NCBI RefSeq assembly: GCF_037126435.1
Contig: NZ_CP147020.1
Span: forward strand, 3,328,001-3,392,000
Direction: 5' to 3'
Origin: Bernardetia sp. ABR2-2B
GTDB lineage: Bacteria; Bacteroidota; Bacteroidia; Cytophagales; Bernardetiaceae
Length of the DNA: 64,000 nt
Made by a program: the position numbers and the translations under genes. The notes under the pieces are model-generated. The model made no database searches and was not told where the DNA came from. It saw nothing but the letters and a program-made list of their open reading frames with translations. Shown piece by piece: positions 42,721 to 59,720 of this stretch. Each line of letters begins with the position of its first letter. Position 1 is the stretch's first letter.

Positions 42721-43152
42721 AATCTATATTATTTATTCGAATTTGAAACAATTACTATTTCAAACACGAATACTAGGGCAAATGCACAAAGTTTTGTAAA
42801 GCAAACCAAGCTGATTCATTTATTTCATAAGGTAAAAATTTGTTTGTTATGACCCCAAACATATCTCAAGTGATATTTTTTTTATTGTAAAAACAATTTT
42901 ATAAAAAGGAGTTAGTGTTAGGTAATTTTTATTTTTAAATAAGGCATCAGCTATTGAATAGAATTGTTAGAGAAGAAAAAAATGTTTCTCTTAAAAAACT
43001 CTTATTTTAATCGAATAAATTGACTAATAAGCTTGTTTTTATTTAAAAAAATGTTAATTTGGTTATATAATTGATAATGAATTTATCAAACAATATTTAA
43101 AGTAAACTGGTTGCTAATAAACAGGTTACCCATTTTTTAAACTCTACCTCAT
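42721..43152. other. 432 bp divergent intergenic region
   Basis: There is no coding frame. It contains an inverted repeat next to the DUF1599 start (42735-42771) and AT-rich sequence leading to the redoxin gene. Promoters for both the minus-strand DoxX unit and the plus-strand signalling array must lie here; I could not define a clear TAnnTTTG box. Confidence 0.5.
42735..42771. promoter_or_regulatory. Inverted repeat upstream of the DUF1599 gene
   Basis: ATTCGAATTTGAAA (42735-42748) and TTTCAAACACGAAT (42758-42771) pair at 12 of 14 positions around a nine-base loop, 15 bases before the DUF1599 start codon. It may be an operator or a leader hairpin. Confidence 0.4.
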
Positions 43153-43857
43153 TTGAACCTCTCTTCTATACAAAATTTGAAAAAAATTAAGAATACAAAA
43201 TGGTTTCAACGCTTTGCTCTTGCAGCTTGTTTTGGACTTATAGGAGCTGTGTTTGCTGTCTTTTGGTGGCAAGAATGGCAATATTTACTTCCTACACCAG
43301 TTCCAGAAGGCTATCAAGAAGTTTTTGTAGGAAAACAGATTCCTAAAGATATAATCTCAGAAATTACTGAACGTCAGAAAAATAAAAGTTCTATATCCTC
43401 TGTATCAAACGGCAAACAAAAGCCTATTTTTCTTCATTTTTTTAGTCCTTTTTGCCCATGTTCGAAGTTTAATATCGCACATATTAATTATCTTGTAGAA
43501 AGATATGGTGATGAAATAGATTTTTATGCCATTATATTCAATGACTCAGAGTACGAAATGGAGTTTATTGATTTTTCAGAGAAATATGATATTCCTATAC
43601 CTACTATTTTAGATAAAAACAATACCATTGCTTCTTCTTGTGGTATTTACGCAACGCCTCAAGCAGCTATTATCACAAGTGAAGGAAAATTATTTTATAA
43701 AGGAAATTATAATATCAGTAGATATTGTAATAATAGAGATACAAATTTTGCCGAACAAGCCTTGGGTGCATTATTGGAAGGAAAAAATCCTCCAGATTTC
43801 GGAGAGTTAGCCAACAAAGCGTATGGCTGTGAGCTTCCTGAAGACTACTTCCAATAA
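43153..43857 (+). CDS. Membrane-anchored thioredoxin-fold protein (DUF6436 type, CxC motif)
   Basis: A 234-residue protein with one N-terminal membrane helix (residues 20-40) and a periplasmic thioredoxin-like domain. The redox motif is SPFCPCSKF (C101, C103), a CxC arrangement, not the common CxxC, and the cis-Pro region is GIYATPQAAII. DUF6436 proteins share the CPCS(R/K)F motif. The only usable start is TTG at 43153: an in-frame stop lies at 43138 and no ATG precedes the membrane helix. It is 50 bp before the first kinase of the array. Confidence 0.75.
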   Translation: MNLSSIQNLKKIKNTKWFQRFALAACFGLIGAVFAVFWWQEWQYLLPTPVPEGYQEVFVGKQIPKDIISEITERQKNKSSISSVSNGKQKPIFLHFFSPFCPCSKFNIAHINYLVERYGDEIDFYAIIFNDSEYEMEFIDFSEKYDIPIPTILDKNNTIASSCGIYATPQAAIITSEGKLFYKGNYNISRYCNNRDTNFAEQALGALLEGKNPPDFGELANKAYGCELPEDYFQ

Positions 43858-43907
43858 ATAAAAACGAACCGAAAATATAACTTTCTGCCAAAAGATAAAA
43901 TCAAGAT

Positions 43908-46900
43908 ATGAAACATACAGATATTGCCCTAGACCCTAGCATAAAAAAATCAAAGGTCTATAACTTAGAGTTAAATACCTATTTAGAGCAAGTACAAGAA
44001 AAAGCAGATAAAATTTCTGATAAGTTTGTCGCTATGTTTTTTGTTTTGGGCTTGTGTCTTATGCCTGTTTATGAAACGTGGGCATTTACGATTGCTAATA
44101 GTGTTATAATAGCAGGACTTTATGGAATGGCTCGTTTAGTCATACAGAATAAGTTTAGAGCTCGTATGATTATTAGCTTAGTCTATGCGATTTTTATGCT
44201 TCAATTTATTGGACAGATGCACGGAATGGCAGAAATTCACTTTTTCTTTTTTATAAATATTGCCCTTCTTATTATTTATCAAGATTGGCGTATTATGATT
44301 CCTTATACTGTTTTTGCGATTGGGCATCATAGTGTTTTGGCAGTTCTTCAAGCCAATGCAGCAAATATTGATGTTTTACAAGGTGTAAATCTAGGAAATT
44401 ACTTCATAGGCTTTCAAGGAAGAACGATTGAAGGGGCAACAGTAGATTATATTACTACTTTTCAGTTGATGTTTCATTTTGGCTTGGCTGCAATGATGGC
44501 ATTTATTTGTGGTTGGTGGGCTGTTATTTTTAGAAATAATAGTATTAATTTGATGGAAAAGCAGTTTGAAGCACAAGCACAAAATGAAGAGTTGCGCTCA
44601 TCAGAAGAAGAGTTAAGACAAAATACAGAAGAACTACAAAGCACTAATGACCAAATGTATGTCATTCAGAGAGAAATAGAGGAGAAACAAAAACTTCTTA
44701 ATAAAGCTGAGAAGTTAGTAAACTTGGCAAGTTATGAGATTGACTTGGCTACTCAAAAACTGACACATTCTGATAACTTACCTACCATTTATGGAGAAAA
44801 TAAGTTAGATGATATGCAGAAAGTCATCGAAATTGCTCATCCAGAAGATACTCACAAAGTAGTAGATACAATATCACAATCAGCAGCAGGAAAAATAGAA
44901 GATTATGATATTTCGTATCGCTCAAAAGGAAATAATTTTGACGATTACAAGTATTATAGAGCCGTTGGGGAGCTTGTCAGAGATGGCATGAATAACCCAG
45001 AAAAACTTGTCGGAACAGTACAAGATATTACAGACGAGGTTAAGCAAAAACAAAAAATAGAAGAAGCCTATCAGAAAGTACAAAGCTCAGAAGAAGAATT
45101 ACAACAAAACTATGAAGAGTTACAGGCTATACAAGAGCAACTACTTCTGATACAATATCTAATAGACAATTCACAAGATGCTATACAAGCGTCAAAGGCA
45201 GATGGGCAGTTTGTTTATATGAATAAAGTAGCAGGAGAAAGGTTTGGAATCCGTTCTGAGGAGTGTTCTAATTATTACGTGCATCAAGTAGAGGCTGTTT
45301 TCAACAATCAAGAAGATTGGAAAGCACACGTAGAAGAAGTCAAACAAATAGGAGGAATTACTATTGAGAGTCAAGTTACAAACGAAGTTACAAAAGAGAC
45401 ATTTCCTGTAGAAGTAGGTGTACGCTATGTAGATATTAATGGAGAAGGGTATATGATGGCTTCTTCTAGGAATATAACTGAGCGTAAAAAAGCAGAACAA
45501 GAATTACAAACATCAGAAGAAGAGCTACGTCAAAATTATGAAGAGCTACAAACTACACAAGAGCTTGTAAATAATGCCTTTTCAGAAATTGATGCTCAAC
45601 TTACTGCTATCAGCACCACACTTGGTTATGTAGAAATGAATACTGACCGAAAAGTAGAACGAGTGAATCAACTCTTTGCTGATTGGACGGGATATTCTAT
45701 CGACGAACTTCAAGGTGCAAAACATATTGATTTTGTTCCAAATACAGAAGAAGACAAACAAAAATACGAACAGCTTTGGGAAAAGCTTAATGCAGGAGAA
45801 ACAGTATCCGAAGTATTCAAACGAAAAGCAAAAGACGGAACAGAAGTTTGGCTCTATGGAGCATATTGTCCTGTAAAAGATAAAGAAGGTAAAGTAGTAA
45901 AGATAATAAAAGTAGCTTCTAATTATAATGCACATAAAGAATTTGAAGAACAAATAAAATCTACCAACGACAGACTACAAAACCTTATTGAAAATGTAGG
46001 TGATTTGGTGTTTTTATTGGATACAGATTTAGTTTTTAAGCAGTATTATGCTTCTTCTGATAAAGATTTGGTACTCAAGCCAGAATCTTTTTTACACAGA
46101 AAAATAACAGAAGTAGGATTTCCAAATAAACCTTTGAAAAATATTGTAGCAGCATTACAGAAAGCAATTCTAAATAAGGAAAAAGCTACGGCAGAATATA
46201 AATTAGAACTTCCACATGGAAACGAGTGGTTTAGTTTGATTGCTTCTCCTATTTTAAATGGACAAACGGAAGTTGAGGACATCCTTTGCGTAACACGTAA
46301 CATTACTTACATAAAAGAAACTGAAATTGCTGTTCAAGAACAAAATGAAATGCTCTCTCAACAGAAAGAGAATATCGAAACAGCATTTAATGAACTCAAA
46401 ACTACTCAAGACCAGCTCATACAGTCTGAAAAAATGGCTAGTTTGGGGCAGCTTGTTGCTAATATTGCACATGAGATAAATACACCGTTGGGAGCAATTC
46501 GTTCGTCTGCTTTGAGTATTGATGAAATTTTGGAAAATACATTGCCAACACTGCCACCGATAATGAAAAGTTTGGATGATGCTACATTAGATAGCTTCAA
46601 TAGATTTGTGCAGCAATCTTCTCAAAAGACAGATATGCTTTCTAGCCGAGAAAAACGTAGAATAAAATACAATTTGATAGGTGAACTGGAAGCAGAAAAT
46701 GTCGATAAAGCAGAAGAATATGCTGATTGGATTGTAGATATGAATATGCACGAAGAAAAAGAATTGTATTTTTCATTTCTGAAGACTCAAAATTCAAGAG
46801 AAATCTTGCATACAGCATATCAATTATCGACAGTAGTTCGAAGCAACCGAACCGTCAAAACAGCCACGGATAGAGCTGCCAAAATTGTCTTTGCATTAAA

Positions 46901-47381
46901 GAATTATGCTCGTCAAGACCAAACAGGCGAAAAATCCACGGTAAATATCAATGAGAGCCTAGAAACAACACTTACACTCTATCACAACCAAATCAAACAC
47001 GGAGTTGATGTTACTAGAGATTTTGGAGGTATTCCAGAGTTTATGGGCTACCCAGACGAACTCGTGCAGGTTTGGACAAACATTATTCATAATGCACTTC
47101 AAGCCATGAAACACAAAGGTCGTTTATTTCTCCAAACAAGTACAAATGATGATAAAGTCTTAGTCAGCATTCAAGACACAGGTGGAGGAATCCCTAAAGA
47201 AGTCCAAGACAAAATCTTTGATGCTTTCTTTACCACGAAGTCTGCTGGAGAAGGAAGTGGCTTAGGCTTAGATATTACCAAAAAAATTATAGAAAAACAC
47301 GATGGAAAAATTTGGTTTGATTCTTTAGATGGGGTCGGAACTACATTTTTTATTGAACTTCCTATAAAAAATGAAAATTAA
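43908..47381 (+). CDS. Membrane multi-PAS histidine kinase 1 of the array
   Basis: A 1157-residue sensor kinase. Residues 35-215 form about six membrane helices with a conserved-looking IHFFFFINIALLIIYQDW and GHHSVLAVL, a His-rich membrane sensor also seen in other kinases and diguanylate cyclases. PAS domains follow at about 264-381, 418-534, 551-683 and 688-806, joined by EEELRQN-type coiled coils. The phospho-His is H855 in NIAHEINTPLGAI; then a long insertion, the ALKNYARQDQ helix (~1000), and an ATPase domain with N-box (~1060), DTGGGIP and GEGSGLGL. No receiver is fused. Its transmitter is nearly the same as that of the kinase at 48292. Confidence 0.92.
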   Translation: MKHTDIALDPSIKKSKVYNLELNTYLEQVQEKADKISDKFVAMFFVLGLCLMPVYETWAFTIANSVIIAGLYGMARLVIQNKFRARMIISLVYAIFMLQFIGQMHGMAEIHFFFFINIALLIIYQDWRIMIPYTVFAIGHHSVLAVLQANAANIDVLQGVNLGNYFIGFQGRTIEGATVDYITTFQLMFHFGLAAMMAFICGWWAVIFRNNSINLMEKQFEAQAQNEELRSSEEELRQNTEELQSTNDQMYVIQREIEEKQKLLNKAEKLVNLASYEIDLATQKLTHSDNLPTIYGENKLDDMQKVIEIAHPEDTHKVVDTISQSAAGKIEDYDISYRSKGNNFDDYKYYRAVGELVRDGMNNPEKLVGTVQDITDEVKQKQKIEEAYQKVQSSEEELQQNYEELQAIQEQLLLIQYLIDNSQDAIQASKADGQFVYMNKVAGERFGIRSEECSNYYVHQVEAVFNNQEDWKAHVEEVKQIGGITIESQVTNEVTKETFPVEVGVRYVDINGEGYMMASSRNITERKKAEQELQTSEEELRQNYEELQTTQELVNNAFSEIDAQLTAISTTLGYVEMNTDRKVERVNQLFADWTGYSIDELQGAKHIDFVPNTEEDKQKYEQLWEKLNAGETVSEVFKRKAKDGTEVWLYGAYCPVKDKEGKVVKIIKVASNYNAHKEFEEQIKSTNDRLQNLIENVGDLVFLLDTDLVFKQYYASSDKDLVLKPESFLHRKITEVGFPNKPLKNIVAALQKAILNKEKATAEYKLELPHGNEWFSLIASPILNGQTEVEDILCVTRNITYIKETEIAVQEQNEMLSQQKENIETAFNELKTTQDQLIQSEKMASLGQLVANIAHEINTPLGAIRSSALSIDEILENTLPTLPPIMKSLDDATLDSFNRFVQQSSQKTDMLSSREKRRIKYNLIGELEAENVDKAEEYADWIVDMNMHEEKELYFSFLKTQNSREILHTAYQLSTVVRSNRTVKTATDRAAKIVFALKNYARQDQTGEKSTVNINESLETTLTLYHNQIKHGVDVTRDFGGIPEFMGYPDELVQVWTNIIHNALQAMKHKGRLFLQTSTNDDKVLVSIQDTGGGIPKEVQDKIFDAFFTTKSAGEGSGLGLDITKKIIEKHDGKIWFDSLDGVGTTFFIELPIKNEN

Positions 47382-47485
47382 AAGAAAATTCTGTTGTTAG
47401 TGTTTTAATATAGCAACTACAAGGAATTAACTATTTCAAATTATGACAACAAAAATTAAAATCACTTTTTGACTAAAAAAACACT

Positions 47486-48289
47486 ATGAATGTACTAAAA
47501 AGAAACAATGTTGTCGTCAAAGGAAATGGTCAGCAACCTATCCTATTTGTGCATGGGTATGGTTGCGACCAAAACATGTGGCGTTTTGTTGCTCCACAGT
47601 TTGAAGAAACTCACAAAGTCGTACTACTTGATTTGGTAGGTTCGGGGAAGTCAGACTGGAACGCCTATAACAACGAGAAGTACAGCACTCTAAATCAATA
47701 TGCCTCTGATTTGTTAGAAGTAGTTGAAGCACTCAAATTGCAAAACATTACTCTAGTTGTGCATTCTGTCAGTGCCATAATAGGTGCTTTAGCTGCCATA
47801 GAAGCTCCACATCTTTTTAAAAAAATTATAATGGTATGTCCTTCTCCTTGTTATCTCAATGATGGTAACTATCAAGGTGGTTTTGAGAAAGAGGATATTG
47901 ACGATATGATTGATACCTTGAGTAGTAATTATTTGGGTTGGGCGAGTAGCATTACTTCTGTAATTATGGGCAATGCTGATAAGCCTGAACTTACCGAAGA
48001 ACTTACCAATAGTTTCTGCCAACACGACCCCACTATTGCTAAAAACTTTGCTAAAGTTACCTTTACTAGCGACCATCGTAAGGAATTACCAAAGATAAAA
48101 ACGCCAACGCTTATTTTACAAGTTTCGCAAGATTTGATAGCTCCCATGTCAGTAGGAGAGTATGTTCAAGCACACATAAAAAATAGTGAGTTGGTAGTAA
48201 TAGATGGAACAGGACACTGCCCTCATCTAAGCAACCCAACAGAAACAATTGCACATCTCAAAAATTATTTGCTGAATACTGCTAATTAA
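47486..48289 (+). CDS. rsbQ: RsbQ-like alpha/beta hydrolase
   Basis: A 267-residue protein similar along its length to Bacillus RsbQ: KRNNVVVKGNGQ, FVHGYGCDQNMW, LLDLVGSGKSDW, the CPSPCYLND block, NYLGWAS and GHCPHLSNPTETI. The catalytic triad is S94, D216 and H244, at almost the same positions as in RsbQ (S96, D219, H247). The nucleophile elbow is VHSVSA in place of GxSxG. RsbQ makes or handles a small ligand for the PAS domain of the RsbP phosphatase; the fold is also that of the KAI2/D14 plant receptors. Here the next gene, 2 bp away, encodes a PAS histidine kinase. Confidence 0.9.
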   Translation: MNVLKRNNVVVKGNGQQPILFVHGYGCDQNMWRFVAPQFEETHKVVLLDLVGSGKSDWNAYNNEKYSTLNQYASDLLEVVEALKLQNITLVVHSVSAIIGALAAIEAPHLFKKIIMVCPSPCYLNDGNYQGGFEKEDIDDMIDTLSSNYLGWASSITSVIMGNADKPELTEELTNSFCQHDPTIAKNFAKVTFTSDHRKELPKIKTPTLILQVSQDLIAPMSVGEYVQAHIKNSELVVIDGTGHCPHLSNPTETIAHLKNYLLNTAN

Positions 48290-48291
48290 AT

Positions 48292-49806
48292 ATGTTACAA
48301 AATACCGAAGAGGGGACAGGAATATATAACTTTGCCCCTTGTGGACTTTTTCAAACCTCTGGAAATGAGATAATACAAAAGGTCAATTCAACACTCTTGA
48401 ATTGGCTCGGTTATACGCAGGAAGAGGTGTTGAAGAAAAAAAAATGGACTGATTTCTTGACTATGGGTAGTAAGATTTATCATAATACTCACTTTACCCC
48501 TTTGCTCAATATGCAAGACAAAATAGAGGAGATAAACTTTGAGATGCGTAAAAAAAATGGAGAAAAACTTTCTGTGTTAGTAAATGCACACCTAACTAGA
48601 AAAGAAAACGACTCTTTAAAGGTTATTTATTATTCAGTTTATCGCTTCACGCAGCGCAAACAGTATGAAATAGAATTATTAAAAGCAAAAGAAAAAATAA
48701 AGACTCAAAATGAAGAACTGACTGCATCACAAGAAGAATTAAAAATGAATGTTGAGGAAATGCAAGTCATACAAAATACTTTATCAGAACAAAATGCAGA
48801 GCTAGAAAAAACGCTACATACTTTGGTCGAAACTCAAGATCAACTTATTCAGTCAGAAAAAATGGCTAGTTTGGGGCAGCTTGTTGCCAATATTGCACAC
48901 GAAATCAATACTCCTTTGGGCGCAATTCGTTCTTCTGCTGTCAGTATTGAAAATACCTTGATAAAAGTCCTTCCTTCTCTTTTTTCTTTATTGAAAAAAT
49001 TAGATGATACAACTCTTCAAAACTTCAATGAGTTTGTGCAAGTATCTTCTGAAAAAATAAGTAATCTCTCTAGCCGAGAAAAACGTGCAATAAAATATGA
49101 GTTGATAGAAGAATTAGAAGCACTCAAAATTCAAAATGCAGAGCAATACGCCAACTGGATTGTAGATATGAATATGTATGATGAAAAAGATTTATTTCTA
49201 CTTCTTGCCAAACATCAAAATGCAAAAGAAGTTTTTCATGCTGCCTACCAACTTTCTACTATTGTGCGAAGTAATATAACAGTCAAAACAGCTACGGATA
49301 GAGCAGCCAAAATTATCTTTGCGCTTAAAAACTATGCTCGTCAAGACCAAACAGGCGAAAAGTCTACGGTCAATATCAATGAGAGCCTAGAAACAACGCT
49401 TACACTCTATCACAACCAAATCAAGCACGGAATTGATGTTACTAGAGATTTTGGAGAAATTCCAGAGTTTATGGGTTACCCAGACGAACTGGTACAGGTT
49501 TGGACAAACATTATTCATAATGCCATTCAAGCCATGAAAAATAAAGGTCGTTTGTTTATTCAGACAACTGTAGAAGAGAATAAAGCGTTAATCTGTATCC
49601 AAGACACAGGTGGAGGAATCCCCAACGAAATACAAGACAAAGTTTTTGATGCTTTCTTTACAACTAAAGGAGTAGGCGAAGGAAGTGGCTTAGGTTTAGA
49701 TATTACCAAAAAAATTATAGAAAAACACAATGGAAAAATATGGTTTGATTCTTTAGATGGGGTCGGAACTACATTTTTTATTGAAATTCCTTTTATAAAC
49801 AATTAA
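48292..49806 (+). CDS. PAS histidine kinase 2, probable RsbQ partner
   Basis: A 504-residue cytosolic kinase without membrane segments. One PAS domain (about 8-125) opens FAPCGLFQTSGNEIIQKVN and has NWLGYTQEE, DFLTMGSKIYHNTHF and LLNMQDKIEEINFE, a type I associate with RsbP-like PAS-phosphatases encoded beside RsbQ homologues. A coiled coil (126-190) leads to H203 (NIAHEINTP), the long insertion, NYARQDQ (~346) and the ATPase domain (N-box ~410, DTGGGIP, GEGSGLGL). It follows rsbQ by 2 bp and precedes a receiver gene by 46 bp. Its transmitter DNA is very close to that at 46429-47378. Confidence 0.92.
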   Translation: MLQNTEEGTGIYNFAPCGLFQTSGNEIIQKVNSTLLNWLGYTQEEVLKKKKWTDFLTMGSKIYHNTHFTPLLNMQDKIEEINFEMRKKNGEKLSVLVNAHLTRKENDSLKVIYYSVYRFTQRKQYEIELLKAKEKIKTQNEELTASQEELKMNVEEMQVIQNTLSEQNAELEKTLHTLVETQDQLIQSEKMASLGQLVANIAHEINTPLGAIRSSAVSIENTLIKVLPSLFSLLKKLDDTTLQNFNEFVQVSSEKISNLSSREKRAIKYELIEELEALKIQNAEQYANWIVDMNMYDEKDLFLLLAKHQNAKEVFHAAYQLSTIVRSNITVKTATDRAAKIIFALKNYARQDQTGEKSTVNINESLETTLTLYHNQIKHGIDVTRDFGEIPEFMGYPDELVQVWTNIIHNAIQAMKNKGRLFIQTTVEENKALICIQDTGGGIPNEIQDKVFDAFFTTKGVGEGSGLGLDITKKIIEKHNGKIWFDSLDGVGTTFFIEIPFINN

Positions 49807-49852
49807 AAATTACTTACTATTTATTTACTAAAAAACTAATTACAATAACATT

Positions 49853-50251
49853 ATGAGCAAAAAAAATAGAGCAATCTTGTGTGTGGATGATGATCCAATG
49901 ATACTTATGAGTTTGAAACTGCAACTTACTCAGAGCTTTGATGGGCAGTTTGTCATCGAAACGGCTGAAAGTGGTGAGGAAGCATTAGAACTTATAGAGT
50001 TTTTGGTAGATAGAGACATTGATACGCTTCTTATTATTAGTGACTGGCTAATGCCAAAGATGAAAGGTGATGAGCTTTTGGTTCATGTTAAAAACAAGTT
50101 TCCAAAAGTAGCTCAAATTATGCTTTCTGGACAAGCTGAAAATGAGGCTGTCGAAAATGCCTTCAAAAACTCAAACCTAAAATATTTTATTTCTAAACCT
50201 TGGAATAAAACAGACTTGCTCAAAAAAGTAAACGAAGCATTACAAAATTAA
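49853..50251 (+). CDS. Single-domain response regulator
   Basis: A 132-residue CheY-like receiver. The acidic pocket is D12-D13 in CVDDDPM, the phospho-Asp is D64 in ISDWLMPKMKGDELL, the Ser/Thr switch is in MLSGQAE, and the conserved lysine in FISKPW. There is no output domain, so it must act through protein contact. The WLMP motif with KPW is typical of receivers linked to RpfG- or HD-GYP-type systems, but no such partner is in the window. It is flanked by kinases 2 and 3 and is the only receiver in the array. Confidence 0.93.
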   Translation: MSKKNRAILCVDDDPMILMSLKLQLTQSFDGQFVIETAESGEEALELIEFLVDRDIDTLLIISDWLMPKMKGDELLVHVKNKFPKVAQIMLSGQAENEAVENAFKNSNLKYFISKPWNKTDLLKKVNEALQN

Positions 50252-50264
50252 CTCTTCCCTTATT

Positions 50265-53200
50265 ATGTCTGACACCATCAATAAAAAAGTATTACAAACT
50301 ACTTCTTATTTACAATATGGCTATATTACAGCAATTAGTATGATTGCCATAGCTCTTATTGTGAGCCAGTTTGTTGTACAAGGATTTCTCAAAAATCAAC
50401 AAGATGATGCCAAGGTTATCAATATTTCTGGGAGGCAACGTATGCTTAGTCAGAAGATAACAAAGGAAGCCCTCGTAGTTTCTAATCAAAATACAGAAGA
50501 AAATCGTAAGCAATTACAAAAAACATTTGAGTTATTCGAAGAGTCGCATCTCAACCTCACTCAAAAATCTAACTCGCTCAACTTTACTTCTCAGTATCAA
50601 CTTTCTGATAGTATAAATTCTTTTTATGAAGAAATAACGCCACTTTACAATCAAATCAAAGAAGGAGTAGAGGCTTTAATAAAAAATAATGATACACTAC
50701 AAAGTAATAACGGTTTGAGTAGAACACTGACTGCTGAAAAAAAGTTTTTACCTCTTATGAATCGAATTGTTTTTGCTTATGAAAGTGAGGCAAAACAAAA
50801 GCTGAAACAGCTAAAAAACATAGAGTTAGGAATTGTTATTTTCTCATTACTGATTCTAGTGTTGGAAGCTCTGTTTATTTTTCGTCCAATTGTGAAATAC
50901 ACTAAAGAATCAATTTATCAGACCCTAGAATCAAATAAAGAACTTGCTACAACCAATGAAGAATTAACATCAACAGAAGAAGAACTCAAACAGAATATAG
51001 AAGAACTAGAAACAATACAAGGTAATCTAGTAAAAGCACAAGCCGAACAACAAAATTTTGTTCGTTTGGTAGAGCATGTAGATTCTTTTATTGCCATTAC
51101 AGATTTAGAGGGCAACCTACAGTACCTCAATAAGGCAGGGCAAAAAATGTCTGGTTTTGATGACGATTATAAAGGTAAAACTATATCTGTATTTCATAAT
51201 GAAGAGATTAGCAAAAGAGCGAAAGAGGTAATTATTCCTACTATTATGCAAAAGGGCGAATGGAAAGGAGAACATCAATTTCAAAACCATATTACTAATG
51301 AAATATTTGATACCCTTGCTAATGTTTTTCTATTAAAAGACCCACATACAGAAGAGCCTATTGCTAGAGCAATCGTTCAAGCAGATATTACAGAACGTAA
51401 AAAAAGAGAAGAACACAACATTTTATTACAAACGCTGATTAATAATACTTCAGATGCCGTGCAAGTTTCTGATACAGAAGGAAAGTTTGTGTATATGAAT
51501 GAAGTAGGACTAAATCGTTTGGGACTGCAAGGAGAGGATATTACCAACTATACCACTGCAGATGTAGAATCTATGTTTAAGGAGGAAGGCATTTGGCAAA
51601 AACACGTAGAGGAAGTAAAAGCCGTGGATACATTTATTGTAAAAAGTACCAATATTAATAAAACAACAGGAAGAGAGTTTCCAGTAGAAGTTTCTATTAA
51701 ATACACAGAAATTAATGGAAAAGGTTTTATGGTGGCTGTTTCTAGAGATGTAACCGAGCAGCACAAAAGAGAACAAGAAATTCAGTATCAAAATGAAAAA
51801 TTACAAACCTCTGAAGAAAAACTCAAACAAAATATAGAACAACTACAAACCACAAAAGAAGAGTTAGAAAAACAAAAAATAAAGGTAGAAAGACAAAGTG
51901 CTTATCAAAAAGCAATTTTAGATAATGCAGCTCTTATGGTCATTGCTACAGATACAAATGGAATCATTACTTCTTTTAATCCTGCTGCTGAAAATACATT
52001 AGGATATTCAGCTCAAGATGTAATTGGTGTAGAATCTCCTGCTTTATTTCATGATATAGGTGAAGTTGTCCAACAAGCAGAAGAGCTAAGTCAAGAATTT
52101 AATGAAAAAATTGAAGTAGGTTTTGATGTGTTTATCTATAGAACTCTAAAAGACTTACCAAATATGTATGAATGGACATACGTCAAAAAAAATCAAGAAA
52201 AAATTACTGTTAATTTGACAATTAGTGCTATTCGCCAAAATGAAGAAATAATTGGTTTCTTAGGAATTGCTGAAGATATTACAGAAAGAAAAAAGAATGA
52301 GATAAAGATAGAAAAACATGCTAGAGAGTTGGAGAGTATGCACAAACATCTTACACATGTCCAAGAGCTACTAGAGACTTCTAATCAAGTAGCTCAAATA
52401 GGTGTATGGGAGCTAAACTTAAACGACTACACAACAAAGTGGGATAGCATACTAAAAAAAATACATGAAGTAGATGACAACTTTATTTCTGATGCTCAGA
52501 GTGGAATCCTTTTTTATAAAAAAGGGTATAGCAGAGACAGAATAACAAAAGTGTTTACAAAAGCCTTAGAAAAAGGAGTTCCTTTTGATGAAGAGCTTGA
52601 AATTATTACAGCAAAAGGAAAGGAGAAGTGGGTAAGAGCCATTGGAATACCAACGCTCAAAGATGGTAAGTGTACAGAAATGTATGGTACATTTCAAGAC
52701 ATTACGCAAAGAAAGCAGAGTGAAATAAAAGTAAACTCTAGTAATAAAAGATTACAAAATCTTATTGAAAATGTAGGTGATTTGGTATTTCTATTGGATA
52801 AGGACTTCATCTTTAAAGAATATTATGCTTTATCAAGCAAAGATTTGGTAGTGCAACCTGAGCATTTTTTAGGTAATAAAGTAACAGAAGTTGGCTTTCC
52901 TAATGAGACACTTCAAATCATCCTTGCTGCTTTACGAAAGTCTATAAATGAGAAAGAAAAATCAACTACTGAGTACAAATTTGATTTGCCACATGGAACA
53001 CAATGGTTTAGTTTAATTACTTCTCCTATTCTAAATAATGATAATGAAGTTGAAGAGCTTTTGTGTGTAAGTCGTAATATTACCTATATCAAACAAACTG
53101 AAATTGAAGTTCAAGAACAGAATATTAAACTTGCTGAACAAAAAGAAGAAGTTGAGAAGTCATTACTAGACCTTCAAACTACTCAACAGCAACTCATTCA

Positions 53201-54167
53201 ATCCGAAAAAATGGCGAGTTTGGGGCAGCTTGTAGCTAATATTGCTCACGAAATAAATACACCCTTGGGAGCTATTCGTTCTTCGGCAAATAGTATCGAA
53301 ACACTCTTATTACAAGCCTTACCTACTCTTCCTGCTTTTAGCAAAAATCTTGATGAAGCAACACTTTCTATTTTTAATGATTTTTTAACGCAATCAATTC
53401 AAAAAACAGATACACTCACACGAAAAGAAAAGCGTAAAATAAAATATGCTTTGATAGAAGACTTTGAAGAATTAGAATTGGGAAATAATGAATATTATGC
53501 TGACTTGGTTGTAGATATGAATATGTATGAAGAAAAAGAACTTTTAATGAACCTTCTTCAATCTGATAACTCAGAAACTACCAAAAAAGAAATTTTTGAT
53601 ATGGCTTATCAACTCTCTGCTATTATAAGAAGTAACAGAACCATAACAGTAGCTACCAAACGAGCAGCTAAAACAGTTTTTGCATTAAAGAATTATGCTC
53701 GTCAAGACCATTCAGAAGAAAAAACAGAGGTAAACCTAAAACAAACCCTAGAAACAACACTGACACTTTATCGCAATCAAATCAAACAGGGAGTAGATGT
53801 AGAAAGAGACTATGATGAGATTTCTAATTTTTTGGGTTATCCAGATGAACTAATGCAAGTCTGGACAAATCTTATTCATAATGGAATCCAAGCCATGAAA
53901 GGAAAAGGAAAACTAATTGTTTCTACCCAAAAACAAGAAAATAAAGTGGTTGTTTCTATTCAAGATACAGGAACAGGAATTCCAAAAAATATTCAAGATA
54001 AAGTATTTGATGCTTTCTTTACCACCAAACCTATCGGAGAGGGAAGTGGCTTAGGTTTAGATATTACTAAAAAAATTATAGAAAAACACGACGGCAAAAT
54101 TTGGTTTGAAACCGAAGAAGGAGTTGGAACTACGTTTTTCGTCGAAATCCCTATCAAAATAAATTAA
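50265..54167 (+). CDS. NIT/PilJ-type multi-PAS histidine kinase 3
   Basis: A 1300-residue kinase. Two membrane helices (about 18-40 and 186-207) enclose a periplasmic domain of PilJ/NIT type with VINISGRQRMLSQKITKEAL near its start. Five PAS domains follow at about 265-383, 385-505, 545-675, 700-818 and 826-948. H995 (NIAHEINTP) starts the transmitter, then the insertion, NYARQDH (~1142) and the ATPase domain. In one place the G1 box reads DTGTGIP where the siblings have DTGGGIP. PAS 2 and PAS 5 resemble PAS domains of kinase 1. It starts 13 bp after the receiver gene. Confidence 0.92.
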   Translation: MSDTINKKVLQTTSYLQYGYITAISMIAIALIVSQFVVQGFLKNQQDDAKVINISGRQRMLSQKITKEALVVSNQNTEENRKQLQKTFELFEESHLNLTQKSNSLNFTSQYQLSDSINSFYEEITPLYNQIKEGVEALIKNNDTLQSNNGLSRTLTAEKKFLPLMNRIVFAYESEAKQKLKQLKNIELGIVIFSLLILVLEALFIFRPIVKYTKESIYQTLESNKELATTNEELTSTEEELKQNIEELETIQGNLVKAQAEQQNFVRLVEHVDSFIAITDLEGNLQYLNKAGQKMSGFDDDYKGKTISVFHNEEISKRAKEVIIPTIMQKGEWKGEHQFQNHITNEIFDTLANVFLLKDPHTEEPIARAIVQADITERKKREEHNILLQTLINNTSDAVQVSDTEGKFVYMNEVGLNRLGLQGEDITNYTTADVESMFKEEGIWQKHVEEVKAVDTFIVKSTNINKTTGREFPVEVSIKYTEINGKGFMVAVSRDVTEQHKREQEIQYQNEKLQTSEEKLKQNIEQLQTTKEELEKQKIKVERQSAYQKAILDNAALMVIATDTNGIITSFNPAAENTLGYSAQDVIGVESPALFHDIGEVVQQAEELSQEFNEKIEVGFDVFIYRTLKDLPNMYEWTYVKKNQEKITVNLTISAIRQNEEIIGFLGIAEDITERKKNEIKIEKHARELESMHKHLTHVQELLETSNQVAQIGVWELNLNDYTTKWDSILKKIHEVDDNFISDAQSGILFYKKGYSRDRITKVFTKALEKGVPFDEELEIITAKGKEKWVRAIGIPTLKDGKCTEMYGTFQDITQRKQSEIKVNSSNKRLQNLIENVGDLVFLLDKDFIFKEYYALSSKDLVVQPEHFLGNKVTEVGFPNETLQIILAALRKSINEKEKSTTEYKFDLPHGTQWFSLITSPILNNDNEVEELLCVSRNITYIKQTEIEVQEQNIKLAEQKEEVEKSLLDLQTTQQQLIQSEKMASLGQLVANIAHEINTPLGAIRSSANSIETLLLQALPTLPAFSKNLDEATLSIFNDFLTQSIQKTDTLTRKEKRKIKYALIEDFEELELGNNEYYADLVVDMNMYEEKELLMNLLQSDNSETTKKEIFDMAYQLSAIIRSNRTITVATKRAAKTVFALKNYARQDHSEEKTEVNLKQTLETTLTLYRNQIKQGVDVERDYDEISNFLGYPDELMQVWTNLIHNGIQAMKGKGKLIVSTQKQENKVVVSIQDTGTGIPKNIQDKVFDAFFTTKPIGEGSGLGLDITKKIIEKHDGKIWFETEEGVGTTFFVEIPIKIN

Positions 54168-54203
54168 ATTTTTTTATCTTACATGTCTGAAAGTTAAAAC
54201 TTT

Positions 54204-54953
54204 ATGAAAAAACTATTTACGCTACTTACTTTATTATTTGTCTCCTTTTCAGCTTTAGCTCAAACAGATTCACTACAAAATCAAGCTGCTGACAGCACCA
54301 ACAAAGGCGAAGTCATTATTTCAGCAAGTATTTATAATCGATATATTTGGAGAGGTGTAAACTTTGCAGATGCTCCTTCTATACAAGCACTTTTTGCTTA
54401 TTCAAAAGGTGGTTTTGAAATCGGAACGTATGGCGCAACTACTCTAAATGGCGACAAACGAGGCTACGGAAATACCATTGAAGTATATGCCACTTATAAG
54501 TACAAAAACTTTTCGATTACGATAGATGATTATTTTTTCTATGAATCAATAGATTCTTTAAATAATTATTTTGAGTATGGAAAAAACACCACTCATTTTG
54601 TAGAGGGAAGACTGCGCTACGACCACGATAAGTTTTATCTTATGACAGGTTATGTTCTTTATACAAGAGAAATTGATGATACAAAAGGGCTTTACTTAGA
54701 GGCAGGATATTATCTCAATGACTATATCAAAGTTGTTGCTGGAGGAGTAACGAGTAGTAGTTTTCTCAATTTTCAAGATACAGGAGGAATTACAAATATT
54801 GGAATTTATGGAAACAGAACGCTCAATATTACGCCTTCATTTAGTTTAGATTTACAGACGGCTCTTATTGCAAGTCCTAATTATAAAAATGTAGCTGATA
54901 TAACAGGAGTAGCACGTAACCCAATACATTTTCTAATTGGCATTACATTTTAG
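54204..54953 (+). CDS. TorF-type putative outer membrane porin
   Basis: A 249-residue exported protein with a signal peptide ending ALAQ (residue 20) and repeated amphipathic beta strands. IISASIYNRYIWRGVNFADAPSIQ at the mature N-terminus and GFEIGTYGATTL are typical of the TorF (Gcw_chp) porin family, and it ends in a strand with terminal Phe (FLIGITF), as outer membrane barrels do. It sits 36 bp after kinase 3 and 90 bp before kinase 4 on the same strand, probably co-transcribed. The substrate is unknown. Confidence 0.82.
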   Translation: MKKLFTLLTLLFVSFSALAQTDSLQNQAADSTNKGEVIISASIYNRYIWRGVNFADAPSIQALFAYSKGGFEIGTYGATTLNGDKRGYGNTIEVYATYKYKNFSITIDDYFFYESIDSLNNYFEYGKNTTHFVEGRLRYDHDKFYLMTGYVLYTREIDDTKGLYLEAGYYLNDYIKVVAGGVTSSSFLNFQDTGGITNIGIYGNRTLNITPSFSLDLQTALIASPNYKNVADITGVARNPIHFLIGITF

Positions 54954-55043
54954 AGAGAGTAAAATATTCAATCAAAAATAATACATCAGCAAAACTGATT
55001 TTAACTAACAAGAACCTTTTACACTCTTTATTTTATATAAAAA

Positions 55044-56891
55044 ATGAATAGCACAAAAGAACTTTATCGTAATAGAGCGATACAACTTTTTATTTTTTCG
55101 TTTATTCTGACCACTATCGCTTTTGCTTTTATTGGTATGATGTTTTGGAATCATTACGAGTCTAGCAAAAAAATAACAGAGCAAATAGTAGAAGTAGAAA
55201 ATATAGAAGGTGAGATACTTCTCTACGATGAAATGCTGACTATGTCTGCTCGTATGTACACCTCTACGGCAAATACAATGTGGGAGGAAAGGTATAACCA
55301 AACTGTTCCTCTCTTGGATTCTGCTCTGCTTCATGCTGAAAAAGTAGCTCCAAAAGCCTTCGAAAAAGCTATTCAAAAAACAGATAAAGCCAATCAAGCA
55401 CTTATTCAAAAAGAAACAAAGGCTTTCGAACTTACAAAAGAAGGAAATAAAGAACTTGCTTATTCTATCATTTCAGATGTTTCTTATCAAGAGTATAAGA
55501 AAACCTATGCAAGTGGAATGCAAGAGCTAACACAAGCTATGAAGGAAGAGGTAGTCAAGCTACAACAAAAAAATGAAAATAGAGCAACACTTGCCAGCAC
55601 TATTACACTCATTATTGTTCCTTTTTTACTTTTCGTATGGTACAATACACTCAGACTTATCAGAAAATACATCACTACACAAAGTCAGTTACAATTAGAA
55701 ATAACAAAACAAAATGAAGGGTTAGAACAAAAAGTAATTGCTAGAACGTCAGAAATTCAAGAAAAAAATGAAGAGCTGCAAGCCTCCGAAGAAGAGCTAA
55801 GGCAAAATTTGGAAGAATTACAAACGACACAAGAGCAGTTGCAAAATCAAAAAGAAGAAATAGAAAATGCTTACAAACAATTACAATCGACTCAACAGCA
55901 GCTTATTCAATCCGAAAAAATGGCGAGTTTGGGACAGCTTGTTGCTAATATTGCACACGAAATAAATACACCTTTGGGAGCAATTCGTTCCTCGGCAGAT
56001 AGTATAGAAACTATTTTACTCAAAACGCTTTCTGATTTTTCTGATTTTATTAAAAAATTAGACACCCAAACACTTTCTTATTTTGATGAATTTGTGGCTC
56101 TTTCTACTCAAAAAATAGATATATTCTCCAGCAAACAAAAAAGACGAGCAAAATATGCTTTGATAGATAAACTAGAAGAGTTAGAAATAGAAAATGATGA
56201 GTTCTATGCTGATGTAATTATGGAAATGAACATGCAAGATGAAAAAGAACTATTCATGAAATTGCTTCAATCCAATAATTCAGAAGAACTCAAAACAGAA
56301 GTTTTTGATACAGCCTTACGTTTGTCTAATATCATAAAAAGCAACCAAACCATAAAAGAAGCTACCAACCGAGCAGCCAAAACTGTTTTTGCTCTTAAAA
56401 ACTTTGCTCGTCAAGACCATTCAGAAGAAAAAACAGAGGTAAACCTAAATCAAACATTAGAAACCACCCTTACACTTTATTATAACCAAACTAAAGTAGG
56501 TATTGATGTAATACGAAACCTTGAAGAAATGCCTAGTTTTTTGGGCTATCCAGATGAACTCATGCAAGTCTGGACAAACCTTATTCATAATGCCATTCAA
56601 GCAATGAAAGGAAAAGGAGAGTTGAGTATTGCTACTCAAAATAAGCAAGACAAAGTAGTAGTTTCTATACAAGATACAGGAGGAGGCATTCCGATAGAAA
56701 TTCAAGATAAAATATTTGATGCTTTCTTTACTACTAAAGTAGTAGGTGAAGGAAGTGGTTTAGGTTTAGATATTACACGGAAAATTATAGAAAAACATAA
56801 TGGAAAGATTTGGTTTGAAACTCAAGAAGGAGTTGGAACTACTTTTTTTGTAGAAATTCCTATTCAAATTGAATCAAAAATAAAGAAATAA
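55044..56891 (+). CDS. Histidine kinase 4 with four-helix-type periplasmic sensor
   Basis: A 615-residue kinase. Membrane helices at about 13-35 and 182-205 enclose an all-helical periplasmic domain of 4HB type (YDEMLTMSARMYTSTANTMWEERYN...). No PAS domain is present: an EEELRQNLEELQTTQEQL coiled coil leads directly to the transmitter, with H305 (NIAHEINTP), the insertion, NFARQDH (~452), the N-box and GEGSGLGL. The start of kinase 5 is 4 bp after its stop. The receptor half is like methyl-accepting chemotaxis receptors, so small-molecule sensing is likely. Confidence 0.92.
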   Translation: MNSTKELYRNRAIQLFIFSFILTTIAFAFIGMMFWNHYESSKKITEQIVEVENIEGEILLYDEMLTMSARMYTSTANTMWEERYNQTVPLLDSALLHAEKVAPKAFEKAIQKTDKANQALIQKETKAFELTKEGNKELAYSIISDVSYQEYKKTYASGMQELTQAMKEEVVKLQQKNENRATLASTITLIIVPFLLFVWYNTLRLIRKYITTQSQLQLEITKQNEGLEQKVIARTSEIQEKNEELQASEEELRQNLEELQTTQEQLQNQKEEIENAYKQLQSTQQQLIQSEKMASLGQLVANIAHEINTPLGAIRSSADSIETILLKTLSDFSDFIKKLDTQTLSYFDEFVALSTQKIDIFSSKQKRRAKYALIDKLEELEIENDEFYADVIMEMNMQDEKELFMKLLQSNNSEELKTEVFDTALRLSNIIKSNQTIKEATNRAAKTVFALKNFARQDHSEEKTEVNLNQTLETTLTLYYNQTKVGIDVIRNLEEMPSFLGYPDELMQVWTNLIHNAIQAMKGKGELSIATQNKQDKVVVSIQDTGGGIPIEIQDKIFDAFFTTKVVGEGSGLGLDITRKIIEKHNGKIWFETQEGVGTTFFVEIPIQIESKIKK

Positions 56892-56895
56892 ATAT

Positions 56896-58674
56896 ATGAG
56901 CTTTTTAAAAGGCATGATAGAAATTGGCTTTCAACATACTGAGAGCCCTCAACAAAGAAGAGCAACAAAAGTAACAAATATAATAGGTTGGCTTTTAATA
57001 ACACTATGTGTTTTGTTTCTTTTCTTAATGCTTACTGTTCTTACTTCTAATATAGAACAAGGCTTACCTACTCTGATGATTTTTTTGACGCAAGGTATCT
57101 TGACTATCATTCTCAACCATTTTGGTAAGCTACTACTCAGCAAGGCTTTTTTTGTGATTGTAATAAACATAGTCATATTTTATAGTATAAATTCCTCACA
57201 GTTAGAAACCTTAAATATTGTAAGCTATTTTATACTCGTACCTATTGCAGCCCTTTTATTTACTACAAAAGAAAAGGTTTGGCGTGTTGTTTTTTGTGTA
57301 CTTCCTTTTGTGTTTTACCTTATTTCAGAGTTTACAGACTTTCATGCCTTTCCTACTAATGTAGTTAGTCAAGAAGAACTCAAAATGGTAAGAGTAATAT
57401 CACTAAGCTTCAATATGATTCTTCTTTGGGCGATTATGTATTCTTTCACTTCTGATTCAGAAAGAAGCGAGAAAGAACTACAAGAAAGTATAACTGAACT
57501 CCAAAAAACACGAGCTAGTTTGGAGGTACAAGAAGAACTTATAGAATCAAAAAAGGAAATTGAAGCTGCCAATGAAGAACTAAGAGCCTCCGAAGAAGAA
57601 CTAAAGCAAAACTTAGAGGAATTACAAGCTACACAAGAACTATTACAAAGTCAGAAAAAGAATATAGAAAGTGCCTTTGATGAACTTCAATCTACTCAAA
57701 AGCAGCTTATTCAGTCTGAAAAAATGGCGAGTTTGGGACAGCTTGTTGCCAACATTGCCCATGAGATAAATACACCTTTGGGAGCAATTCGTTCGTCTGC
57801 TGATAGTATTGAAGTTATTTTATCAGAAACACTACCTAATTTTTCTGATTTTACTAAGAAGCTAGATGAAAATATACTATCTAATTTTAATCAGTTTGTG
57901 TCTTTGGCAATTCAAAAAACAGATACACTCACACGAAAAGAAAAGCGTAAAATAAAATATGCTTTGATAGAAGAATTTGAGCAAATGGAACTGGAAGAAG
58001 ATGAGTTGTATGCCGATTTGATTGTAGATATGAATATGTATGAAGAAAAAGAACTCTTTATGAATCTTCTTCAATCTGATAACTCAGAAACAACTAAAAA
58101 AGAAATATTTGATACAGCTTACAAGTTATCTACCGTTATTAGAAGCAATCAAACCATAAAAGAAGCCACCAGCCGAGCAGCCAAAACAGTTTTTGCATTA
58201 AAGAATTTTGCTCGTCAAGACCATACAGAAGAAAAAATAGAGGTCAATCTAAATCAAACACTAGAAACAACACTTACACTCTATCACAATCAAATCAAAC
58301 AGGGAGTAGATGTAGAAAGACACTATGATGAGATTTCCAATTTTTTGGGTTATCCAGATGAACTGATGCAAGTTTGGACAAACCTTATTCATAATGCTAT
58401 CCAAGCAATGAAAAATAAGGGACAGCTTTATGTTTCTACTAAAAAGAAAGAAAGTAGTATTTTGGTTTCTATCAAAGATACAGGAGGAGGAATTCCAAAA
58501 GAAATTCAAGATAAAATATTTGATGCTTTCTTTACTACTAAAGTGGTAGGTGAAGGAAGTGGCTTAGGATTAGATATTACAAAGAAAATTATAGAAAAAC
58601 ACGATGGCAAAATTTGGTTTGAAACTGAAGAGGGAATTGGAACTACGTTTTTTGTAGAAATTCCAATTAACTAG
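56896..58674 (+). CDS. Histidine kinase 5 with polytopic membrane sensor
   Basis: A 592-residue kinase with six membrane helices (residues 25-190) and no periplasmic domain or PAS. A coiled coil with EEELKQNLEELQATQEL precedes the transmitter: H289 (NIAHEINTP), the insertion with LTRKEKRKIKYALIEEFE, NFARQDH (~436), DTGGGIP and GEGSGLGL. Its coding end is only 10 bp from that of the convergent lpxA, and no terminator is visible between them. The membrane part may sense a membrane property or hydrophobic ligand; this is a guess. Confidence 0.92.
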   Translation: MSFLKGMIEIGFQHTESPQQRRATKVTNIIGWLLITLCVLFLFLMLTVLTSNIEQGLPTLMIFLTQGILTIILNHFGKLLLSKAFFVIVINIVIFYSINSSQLETLNIVSYFILVPIAALLFTTKEKVWRVVFCVLPFVFYLISEFTDFHAFPTNVVSQEELKMVRVISLSFNMILLWAIMYSFTSDSERSEKELQESITELQKTRASLEVQEELIESKKEIEAANEELRASEEELKQNLEELQATQELLQSQKKNIESAFDELQSTQKQLIQSEKMASLGQLVANIAHEINTPLGAIRSSADSIEVILSETLPNFSDFTKKLDENILSNFNQFVSLAIQKTDTLTRKEKRKIKYALIEEFEQMELEEDELYADLIVDMNMYEEKELFMNLLQSDNSETTKKEIFDTAYKLSTVIRSNQTIKEATSRAAKTVFALKNFARQDHTEEKIEVNLNQTLETTLTLYHNQIKQGVDVERHYDEISNFLGYPDELMQVWTNLIHNAIQAMKNKGQLYVSTKKKESSILVSIKDTGGGIPKEIQDKIFDAFFTTKVVGEGSGLGLDITKKIIEKHDGKIWFETEEGIGTTFFVEIPIN

Positions 58675-58684
58675 TAATTGAAAA

Positions 58685-59482
58685 TTAAATTCCAATACTA
58701 GCATCTTCATTACCACTTTTGATAATTCCTTTTTTTGCATTTTGTATAAACTCTACAATTTGATTTTTTTCCTTTGAAGAAGGCTCTAAAGCTTCTATTT
58801 GTTTGAGGGCTTCTTTTGTGTTTAGTCCTGCTGTATAAATCAGACGATAAATTTCTCTAAGTTCAGCAGTTTTATTAGCATCAAAACCACGCCTACGAAG
58901 TCCTACAATATTGATTCCTGCATAAGAAAGAGGCTCACGTCCTGCACGAATATAAGGAGGAACATCTTTTCTTACCAACGAGCCACCTGCAATCATGGCA
59001 TGTGCGCCAATCTTTACAAACTGCAAAACAGCACTTGTACCTCCAATAATTGCAAATTCTTCTACCTCTACATGACCTGCCAGTTGAACTCCATTTACCA
59101 AAACACAATTGTCTCCAACAATACAGTCGTGTGCAATATGTACATAGGCCATTACTAATACATTATTCCCAACACTCGTTTGCATTTTATCATCTGTACC
59201 TTTATTTATTGTAGCAAACTCTCTGATTGTAGTATTATCACCAATAATAGTAAGTGTTTTTTCACCTTTATATTTCAAATCTTGAGGGTCTCCTGAAATA
59301 ACTGCCCCTGGATAAATCTTACAGTTTTTTCCTATTCTTGCACCATCCATAATGACTACATTTGCAGCAATCCAAGTTCCTTCTCCTATTTCTACATCGC
59401 CATAAATAGTTGCAAAAGGTTCGATAGTTACATTTTTTGCAATTTTAGCATCAGGGTGTATGTTAGTGTTTGGATATTTCAT
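58685..59482 (-). CDS. lpxA: UDP-N-acetylglucosamine acyltransferase
   Basis: A 265-residue left-handed beta-helix enzyme that moves a 3-hydroxyacyl chain from ACP to UDP-GlcNAc, the first step of lipid A synthesis in the cytosol. Hexapeptide repeats run from residue 8 to 190, and the catalytic His is H118 in YVHIAHDCIVGD. The GDPQDLKYKGE loop and IREFATINKG are LpxA hallmarks; the C-terminal helical part contains NIVGLRRRGF. It proves an outer membrane with lipid A. In many Bacteroidota it is near other lpx genes, but here it stands alone. Confidence 0.95.
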   Translation of the reverse strand: MKYPNTNIHPDAKIAKNVTIEPFATIYGDVEIGEGTWIAANVVIMDGARIGKNCKIYPGAVISGDPQDLKYKGEKTLTIIGDNTTIREFATINKGTDDKMQTSVGNNVLVMAYVHIAHDCIVGDNCVLVNGVQLAGHVEVEEFAIIGGTSAVLQFVKIGAHAMIAGGSLVRKDVPPYIRAGREPLSYAGINIVGLRRRGFDANKTAELREIYRLIYTAGLNTKEALKQIEALEPSSKEKNQIVEFIQNAKKGIIKSGNEDASIGI

Positions 59483-59720
59483 GTGAGTAGGCTGTGGTTG
59501 AGTGAGTGCAGTTAAGTAATTATAGTTTTGCTTTAAATTATTTTTTGTCTAAAAGGTTATTTCAACTTTACTGCATAATTGTAGCAAAGTTAAGCCATTA
59601 TCAACAATTTAACTAAAAAAATAAGAGGAAGACAAAACAATAAACATAAATTTACAAATTTGTTTAGTTGCTTATCTATTTTATTTAACTTTTAACGAAG
59701 TAATAGAATGAGAAGATAAA

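Follow-up and report, generated by a model that had tools for sequence, protein, structure and literature searches.

An RsbQ/RsbP-PAS module with histidine kinase output in Bernardetia that seems to have exchanged its kinase half within a local gene cluster

Introduction

Forty-five adjacent pairs of RsbQ and an RsbP-type PAS protein have been reported (Nadezhdin, Brody and Price, PLoS One 2011; PMC3183031), and according to the accessible part of that paper their outputs are PPM phosphatases, histidine kinases in Gram-negative bacteria, and diguanylate cyclases. In Bacillus subtilis, the contact between RsbQ and the PAS domain was shown to run via the F-alpha helix and to require F55, the catalytic triad of RsbQ was needed, and a change of P86 weakened the response (PMC3183031). 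Nine residues were chosen there to define the PAS class (C10, L13, L48, Q53, F55, C56, Y59, E72 and P86), and none of the PAS domains in the set of that paper is said to end in the motif DIT (PMC3183031). Both the delivery of a product and the action of an occupied receptor (Model 2) were proposed for RsbQ (PMC3183031). Here we analyze an rsbQ locus of Bernardetia sp. ABR2-2B, located within a stretch of 64,000 nucleotides (contig NZ_CP147020.1, positions 3,328,001 to 3,392,000, forward strand) that we refer to as the window and whose positions are used throughout.

Judged by its sequence, the locus is an ordinary member of the described RsbQ/RsbP-PAS module. A first-pass annotation of this DNA had regarded the RsbQ-kinase pair as new, which we reject because pairs of RsbQ, PAS domain and histidine kinase were published in 2011 (PMC3183031) and the kinase and cyclase pairings of RsbQ were restated in the consulted part of a 2025 eLife article (PMC12143880). 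What is new here is that the receiver is shared and that, within the genus, kinase halves appear to have been exchanged behind one RsbQ-PAS module.

The RsbQ-PAS kinase locus

The locus consists of three genes in tandem on the + strand, with 2 bp between rsbQ and the open reading frame (ORF) of the PAS histidine kinase (48292-49806, +, 504 amino acids (aa)) and 46 bp between this kinase and a lone receiver. All three ORFs are present as first annotated:

47486..48289, + strand: rsbQ homologue, alpha/beta hydrolase of 267 aa with S94, D216 and H244 (ORF, 1WOM match, triad alignment)
48292..48666, + strand: RsbP-type PAS domain, kinase residues 1-125 (PAS_9 at residues 17-111, class residues; without DIT motif)
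48667..48861, + strand: helical linker, residues 126-190, within a single predicted helix 119-236 (AlphaFold2)
48862..49806, + strand: catalytic half, with DHp (H203), a helical insert at about 239-306 between the DHp helices, and HATPase (domains, model, alignment, grouping with K1)
49853..50251, + strand: single-domain receiver of 132 aa with phospho-acceptor D64; conserved in the genus irrespective of rsbQ (Response_reg, orthologues)

The window RsbQ matches B. subtilis RsbQ (1WOM) over residues 2-262 with an E-value (E) of 2e-87, and S94, D216 and H244 are invariant in 89/89 aligned RsbQ rows (among them that of the window; L009 and L090 represent the same locus), confirming the annotated homology with a full triad. 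The kinase contains PAS_9 and HATPase_c (E 2e-24), and its HisKA stretch scores 26.7 bits, slightly below the cut-off of 26.9. H203 is located inside the H-box, and the N and G boxes are present, which bears out the annotation of a histidine kinase in the place of the phosphatase. The receiver matches Response_reg (E 5e-19) with D12, D64, S92 and K115 in place.

At the nine class positions, the window PAS domain has C17, F20, L56, K61, Y63, H64, H67, E80 and S94. Seven of the nine fit according to our own assignment of residue classes; of the other two, F20 still provides a hydrophobic residue in place of L13, and S94 departs from P86. The numbering was transferred from the text of the 2011 paper via the hPhG and P62 anchors and without the B. 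subtilis RsbP sequence. The motif DIT is absent from the end of the domain, where RFT is found instead, and PAS_9 is the most N-terminal domain of the kinase. The domain can thus be retained as RsbP-type, and no second copy of it was found in this genome at E 0.001.

An AlphaFold2 monomer of the kinase is predicted to consist of the PAS domain, the single helix 119-236, the insert in DHp, and the ATPase domain, with a mean pLDDT of 84.6, a pTM of 0.48, and pLDDT blocks of 86-94 (residues 131-180) and 66-74 (121-130 and 181-210). In the published module a coiled-coil linker leads to the output (PMC3183031); the linker here is part of this continuous helix in the monomer model. Among the 50 Foldseek matches listed for the kinase, sensor kinases and phytochromes predominate.

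Like RsbQ-RsbP of B. subtilis, which acts in sigma-B energy stress, the locus has RsbQ directly upstream of an N-terminal RsbP-type PAS domain and a helical linker, whereas the output is a histidine kinase here and a PPM phosphatase there. With the Gram-negative RsbQ/PAS kinase pairs, as far as they are described in the accessible text (PMC3183031), it shares gene order, most PAS class residues, the helical linker and the output class; it differs from them in its local catalytic type with a DHp insert and in being embedded among sister kinases whose array includes a single lone receiver.

Occurrence of the module across species

The survey covered the best 80 of 223 stretches encoding RsbQ relatives in species genomes. 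An RsbP-PAS gene, mostly encoding a kinase, was found immediately downstream of rsbQ in 67 of these 80 loci, which represent several phyla. The 68 partner proteins (these 67 and the window kinase) comprise 68 with PAS_9, 53 with HATPase_c, 49 with HisKA, 30 with a fused receiver and 11 with SpoIIE. GGDEF is not among the 22 families found in the 68 partners, and two match a cyclase-linked sensor domain; the diguanylate cyclase output class reported in the available text of PMC3183031 has no counterpart in this set, which derives from the best 80 of the 223 relatives. The annotation had suggested testing whether the 2 bp spacing is conserved, and it proved not to be a conserved mark: spacing ranges from an overlap to 93 bp in the 67 pairs (start codons picked mechanically), and it is 93 bp in the sole same-genus homologue found.

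The position of P86 holds P in 51/71 survey PAS rows and S in 5 (for PAS residue counts, the second window copy L004 was left out, and L090 duplicates L009). DIT ends 13/72 RsbQ-linked PAS rows (L029, L038, L053 and others), with 11 rows gapped there; its absence is not a strict feature. The distance between H-box and G-box is 266 residues in the window kinase and 275 in that of L009, versus 185-187 in 13 other partners, counting only the partners in which simple motifs located both boxes (n=15 with the window and L009). The insert, which spans about 70 residues in the model of the window kinase, therefore looks local, since 13 of the 15 surveyed partners are without it.

A PAS partner is missing at 13 of the 80 rsbQ loci, all belonging to Pontibacter, Adhaeribacter or Rufibacter (L024, L025, L032, L034, L041, L057, L058, L059, L062, L067, L069, L083 and L086); a PAS partner is present at further loci of Pontibacter and Adhaeribacter (L013-L015, L018). 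At all 13, the gene just after rsbQ encodes a conserved protein about 140 aa long; 11 of these proteins were aligned, and the other two are 65-69% identical to that of L067. The best AlphaFold2 model reached a pLDDT of 80.5, with three of the five models at only 49-56. Its top match is to SpoIIAA-type anti-sigma antagonists (1TID, E 5e-4, 14% identity), RsbS ranking lower, and Pfam gave one sub-threshold SpoIIAA-like match among the 11 proteins. RsbQ may act directly on a STAS-like protein in the PAS-less loci. The term STAS is absent from the accessible text of the 2011 paper (PMC3183031).

Apparent exchange of kinase halves within the genus

Seven genomes of the genus were compared, with the window genome designated G000 and one genome (G006) being 84% complete. 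A search at E 1e-40 detected rsbQ in two of the seven, G000 and G005. Survey locus L009, from the metagenome-assembled genome (MAG) Flexibacter sp. CG_4_10_14_3_um_filter_32_15, has the same genes as contig 319 of G005. The annotation had named an rsbQ never adjacent to this kinase in related genomes as the result that would speak against it, and the opposite was observed in 2/2 same-genus genomes with rsbQ. The following features are of importance for the comparison:

43908..47381, + strand: K1, large kinase with several PAS domains; its catalytic half shares 76% identity with that of the rsbQ-linked kinase (ORF, domains, alignment)
46404..47086, + strand: left direct DNA repeat, in the K1 catalytic half (DNA comparison, right copy 2428 bp on)
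48832..49514, + strand: right direct DNA repeat, in the catalytic half of the rsbQ-linked kinase (DNA comparison)

Between G000 and G005, rsbQ is 85% identical, PAS plus linker 83%, and kinase residues 216-504 are 63% identical. In steps of 40 residues, the two kinases are 72-92% identical up to about residue 220 (PAS, linker and H-box) and 42-82% thereafter. The window catalytic half resembles that of the neighbouring K1 more closely (76%) than that of the G005 rsbQ-linked kinase (66%). A tree built from 26 kinases of the same catalytic type places the two rsbQ-linked kinases in different supported groups, and a single clade for both was rejected by the approximately unbiased (AU) test (p-AU 0.0001). 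A first tree of 22 motif-found kinases had been seen before this test, and the four that the motifs had missed were then added. By these comparisons, the one further rsbQ detected in the genus is part of the same RsbQ-PAS-linker half, attached there to another resident kinase half. The RsbQ-PAS module thus seems to have exchanged outputs locally, and the RsbQ-PAS-linker half looks like a cartridge swapped between kinases of the local gene cluster. Among the literature listings searched and the papers cited here, we found no account of an exchange of this kind in the genus.

With regard to how the halves were swapped, either two grafts took place, or there was one ancestral fusion, and gene conversion from a kinase nearby later replaced its catalytic half in either or both of the lineages. 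Conversion would be consistent with the catalytic halves of K1 and the rsbQ-linked kinase being direct DNA repeats (74-87% identical in three blocks) that enclose rsbQ, the PAS domain and most of the linker, and with the drop in identity past residue 220. It would also be consistent with a decayed kinase 3' end of 24 residues directly before rsbQ in G005, which is 83% identical to the end of the G005 rsbQ-linked kinase and 79% to that of K4 (E about 2e-10, seven kinases compared). The position of the genes, however, differs between G000 and G005, as two grafts would also yield. The data fit both histories alike, and we consider the chances of the conversion route to be even.

rsbQ-PAS may have been transferred recently between the lineages of G000 and G005; the bootstrap intervals of synonymous divergence (dS) overlap. 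Identity at four-fold sites between G000 and G005 is 67% for rsbQ and 61% for PAS plus linker (standard errors of 5 to 9 points); it is 49-58% for the receiver, the K1 catalytic half and the redoxin-like, response regulator (RR)-SpoIIE and glycosyltransferase-like (our own label) genes, and reaches 70% for the K1 N-terminus. A quick tree of RsbQ, with L090 excluded, placed the window and its genus-mate beside two Leptospiraceae MAGs with an SH-aLRT support of 94, just below the mark of 95. A transfer of rsbQ between phyla is a possibility.

RsbQ as enzyme or receptor

RsbQ may be a receptor in the manner of D14/KAI2, where ligand occupancy alters a stable contact with the PAS domain and hydrolysis only resets the switch, which corresponds to Model 2 as given in the available part of PMC3183031. 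The window RsbQ is close to the karrikin and strigolactone receptors KAI2 and D14 (E about 1e-55 to 1e-52), alpha/beta hydrolases to which it is related, but it is closer to bacterial RsbQ, and its partner here is a PAS kinase. The nucleophile elbow (47756-47776, RsbQ residues 91-97) reads V-H-S-V-S, an unusual V at its first position, where 80/89 rows have G, 6/89 Ala and 3/89 Val. The Val rows are the window and G005, the latter present in two copies. The triad conserved throughout the alignment nevertheless fits catalysis equally well, and we hold a receptor of this kind to be a real prospect that falls somewhat short of even chances.

The receiver and the kinase array

The locus is part of an array of five kinases of a common catalytic type within 43908-58674, the rsbQ-linked kinase among them. 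Searched for at E 1e-30, this type gave 11 matches in the window genome, and for nine of these E was below 1e-100. The further members and the gene to the left of K1 are:

50265..54167, + strand: K3, PilJ/multi-PAS kinase of the same catalytic type (ORF, domains, genome search)
55044..56891, + strand: K4, kinase of the same catalytic type (genome search)
56896..58674, + strand: K5, kinase of the same catalytic type (genome search)
43153..43857, + strand: redoxin-like gene, adjoining K1 on the left both here and in the five further genus genomes that have the locus (label read from the sequence, without family search)

A receiver orthologue is present in 6/7 genus genomes, with 84-90% identity in the five others and G006 as the exception. 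These five other genomes share the order of redoxin-like gene, K1, receiver and then at least one kinase, the receiver directly following K1 in each. In G005, rsbQ comes first after the receiver, with 93 bp between it and its kinase, while in the window rsbQ and its kinase are inserted between K1 and the receiver. Four genus genomes with the receiver after K1 have no rsbQ at E 1e-40. Since the array order and the receiver are kept without rsbQ, we assign the receiver to the array and reject the reading that it is dedicated to RsbQ. Downstream of another kinase of this catalytic type (C1:4296113) lies a receiver paralogue of 60% identity, an arrangement that supports the pairing of this kinase type with this receiver type.

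Alternatively, the kinase may bypass the lone receiver and phosphorylate RR-SpoIIE proteins encoded elsewhere, so that RsbQ would control a PPM phosphatase by a His-Asp step, resembling RsbK-RsbY. The lone receiver shares 43 and 49% identity with the receivers of the two RR-SpoIIE proteins, which rank next after its 60% paralogue in the genome. In 4/5 other genus genomes with the locus (G001, G003, G004 and G005), one or two RR-SpoIIE genes adjoin the redoxin-K1-receiver block just past the redoxin-like gene, and control of sigma-B by a histidine kinase and an RR-PP2C protein is described for Bacillus cereus in the consulted part of PMC4574943. The present locus would resemble that system in a histidine kinase possibly feeding receiver-PPM phosphatases; it differs in its RsbQ-PAS input, and the link to RR-SpoIIE consists of neighbourhood in other genomes and receiver similarity only. 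The RR-SpoIIE genes are located elsewhere in G002 and in the window genome, about 540 kb away in the latter. Nearness in relatives is weak evidence because the window genome has 75 SpoIIE matches. A phmmer search of the flanks of the other rsbQ-kinase loci gave no further PPM gene, matching only 11 loci, a number equal to that of the SpoIIE partners; its sensitivity was low, since the genus SpoIIE queries matched none of the 11 and the first profile found nothing. We regard this bypass as rather unlikely.

SpoIIE-type PPM domains are abundant in the genus, with 75 matches in the 5.4 Mb of G000 and 47-73 per genome across 7/7 genomes at E 1e-9. One such phosphatase (L112:7751-9361, G000 C1:1167750-1169360) has the same N-terminal domain as K1 (phmmer E 1e-80), and one input domain is thus found with two kinds of output in the window genome, in the K1 kinase and in a SpoIIE phosphatase. 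G000 contains four STAS and six HATPase_c_2 matches (two of them strong), none of which is in the window. There seems to be an expansion of phosphatase signalling that no comparable complement of partner-switching proteins accompanies. A scan for promoters and terminators gave counts not above those of shuffled sequence, Rfam had no match across 43000-59500, and a search for inverted repeats yielded nothing usable.

Proposed mechanism

We posit that the locus is probably a bipartite RsbQ/RsbP-PAS module with a kinase output, gated via PAS domain and long helix, that sends phosphate to a shared receiver and serves as an exchangeable input cartridge. This builds on what is observed here: the genes present and their conserved order, the class signature, and one module that occurs with two different catalytic halves. 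RsbQ would bind, and probably convert, a small hydrophobic molecule and contact the F-alpha helix of the N-terminal PAS domain of the kinase; this contact and the requirement for the triad are carried over from the work on B. subtilis. According to the structural model, the resulting change could travel along one long helix into the DHp bundle, where it would set autophosphorylation of H203. Phosphate would then pass from H203 to D64 of the receiver common to the array kinases, and the RsbQ-PAS part would be the cartridge joined to a resident array kinase. Of these steps, the ligand, the direction of control and the phosphotransfer to D64 are what we infer.

Several points weigh against this proposal. 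The kinase model is a monomer with a pTM of 0.48, S94 of the PAS domain departs from P86, and spacing and gene order differ, rsbQ lying before the receiver in G000 and after it in G005. The receiver may also serve only K1 or other kinases, since it occurs without rsbQ. That rsbQ is a mere neighbour, a free-standing metabolic hydrolase unlinked to the kinase, appears very improbable: generic esterase profiles also match it, all far under their cut-offs among the 25 matches listed, but the RsbP-PAS gene is kept directly downstream across several phyla, and RsbQ and PAS stayed joined in G000 and G005 when the kinase half did not.

An extended version of the bipartite module, which we consider improbable, is a recombining input cartridge that, in this genus, passes from one sister kinase to another via recombination in their repeated catalytic halves. 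Its kinases would converge on the shared receiver and, through cross-talk, on the receiver-SpoIIE phosphatases, and RsbQ would again govern a PPM phosphatase via an added His-Asp relay.

Implications

The locus offers a further system in which to seek the ligand of RsbQ, with a kinase readout. The two kinases from the same genus are a natural domain-swap experiment, in which one RsbQ-PAS-linker half is found with two kinase halves. This swap lends support to the published concept of a sensing module that can be interchanged, and it provides two ready-made proteins with which the concept may be tested.

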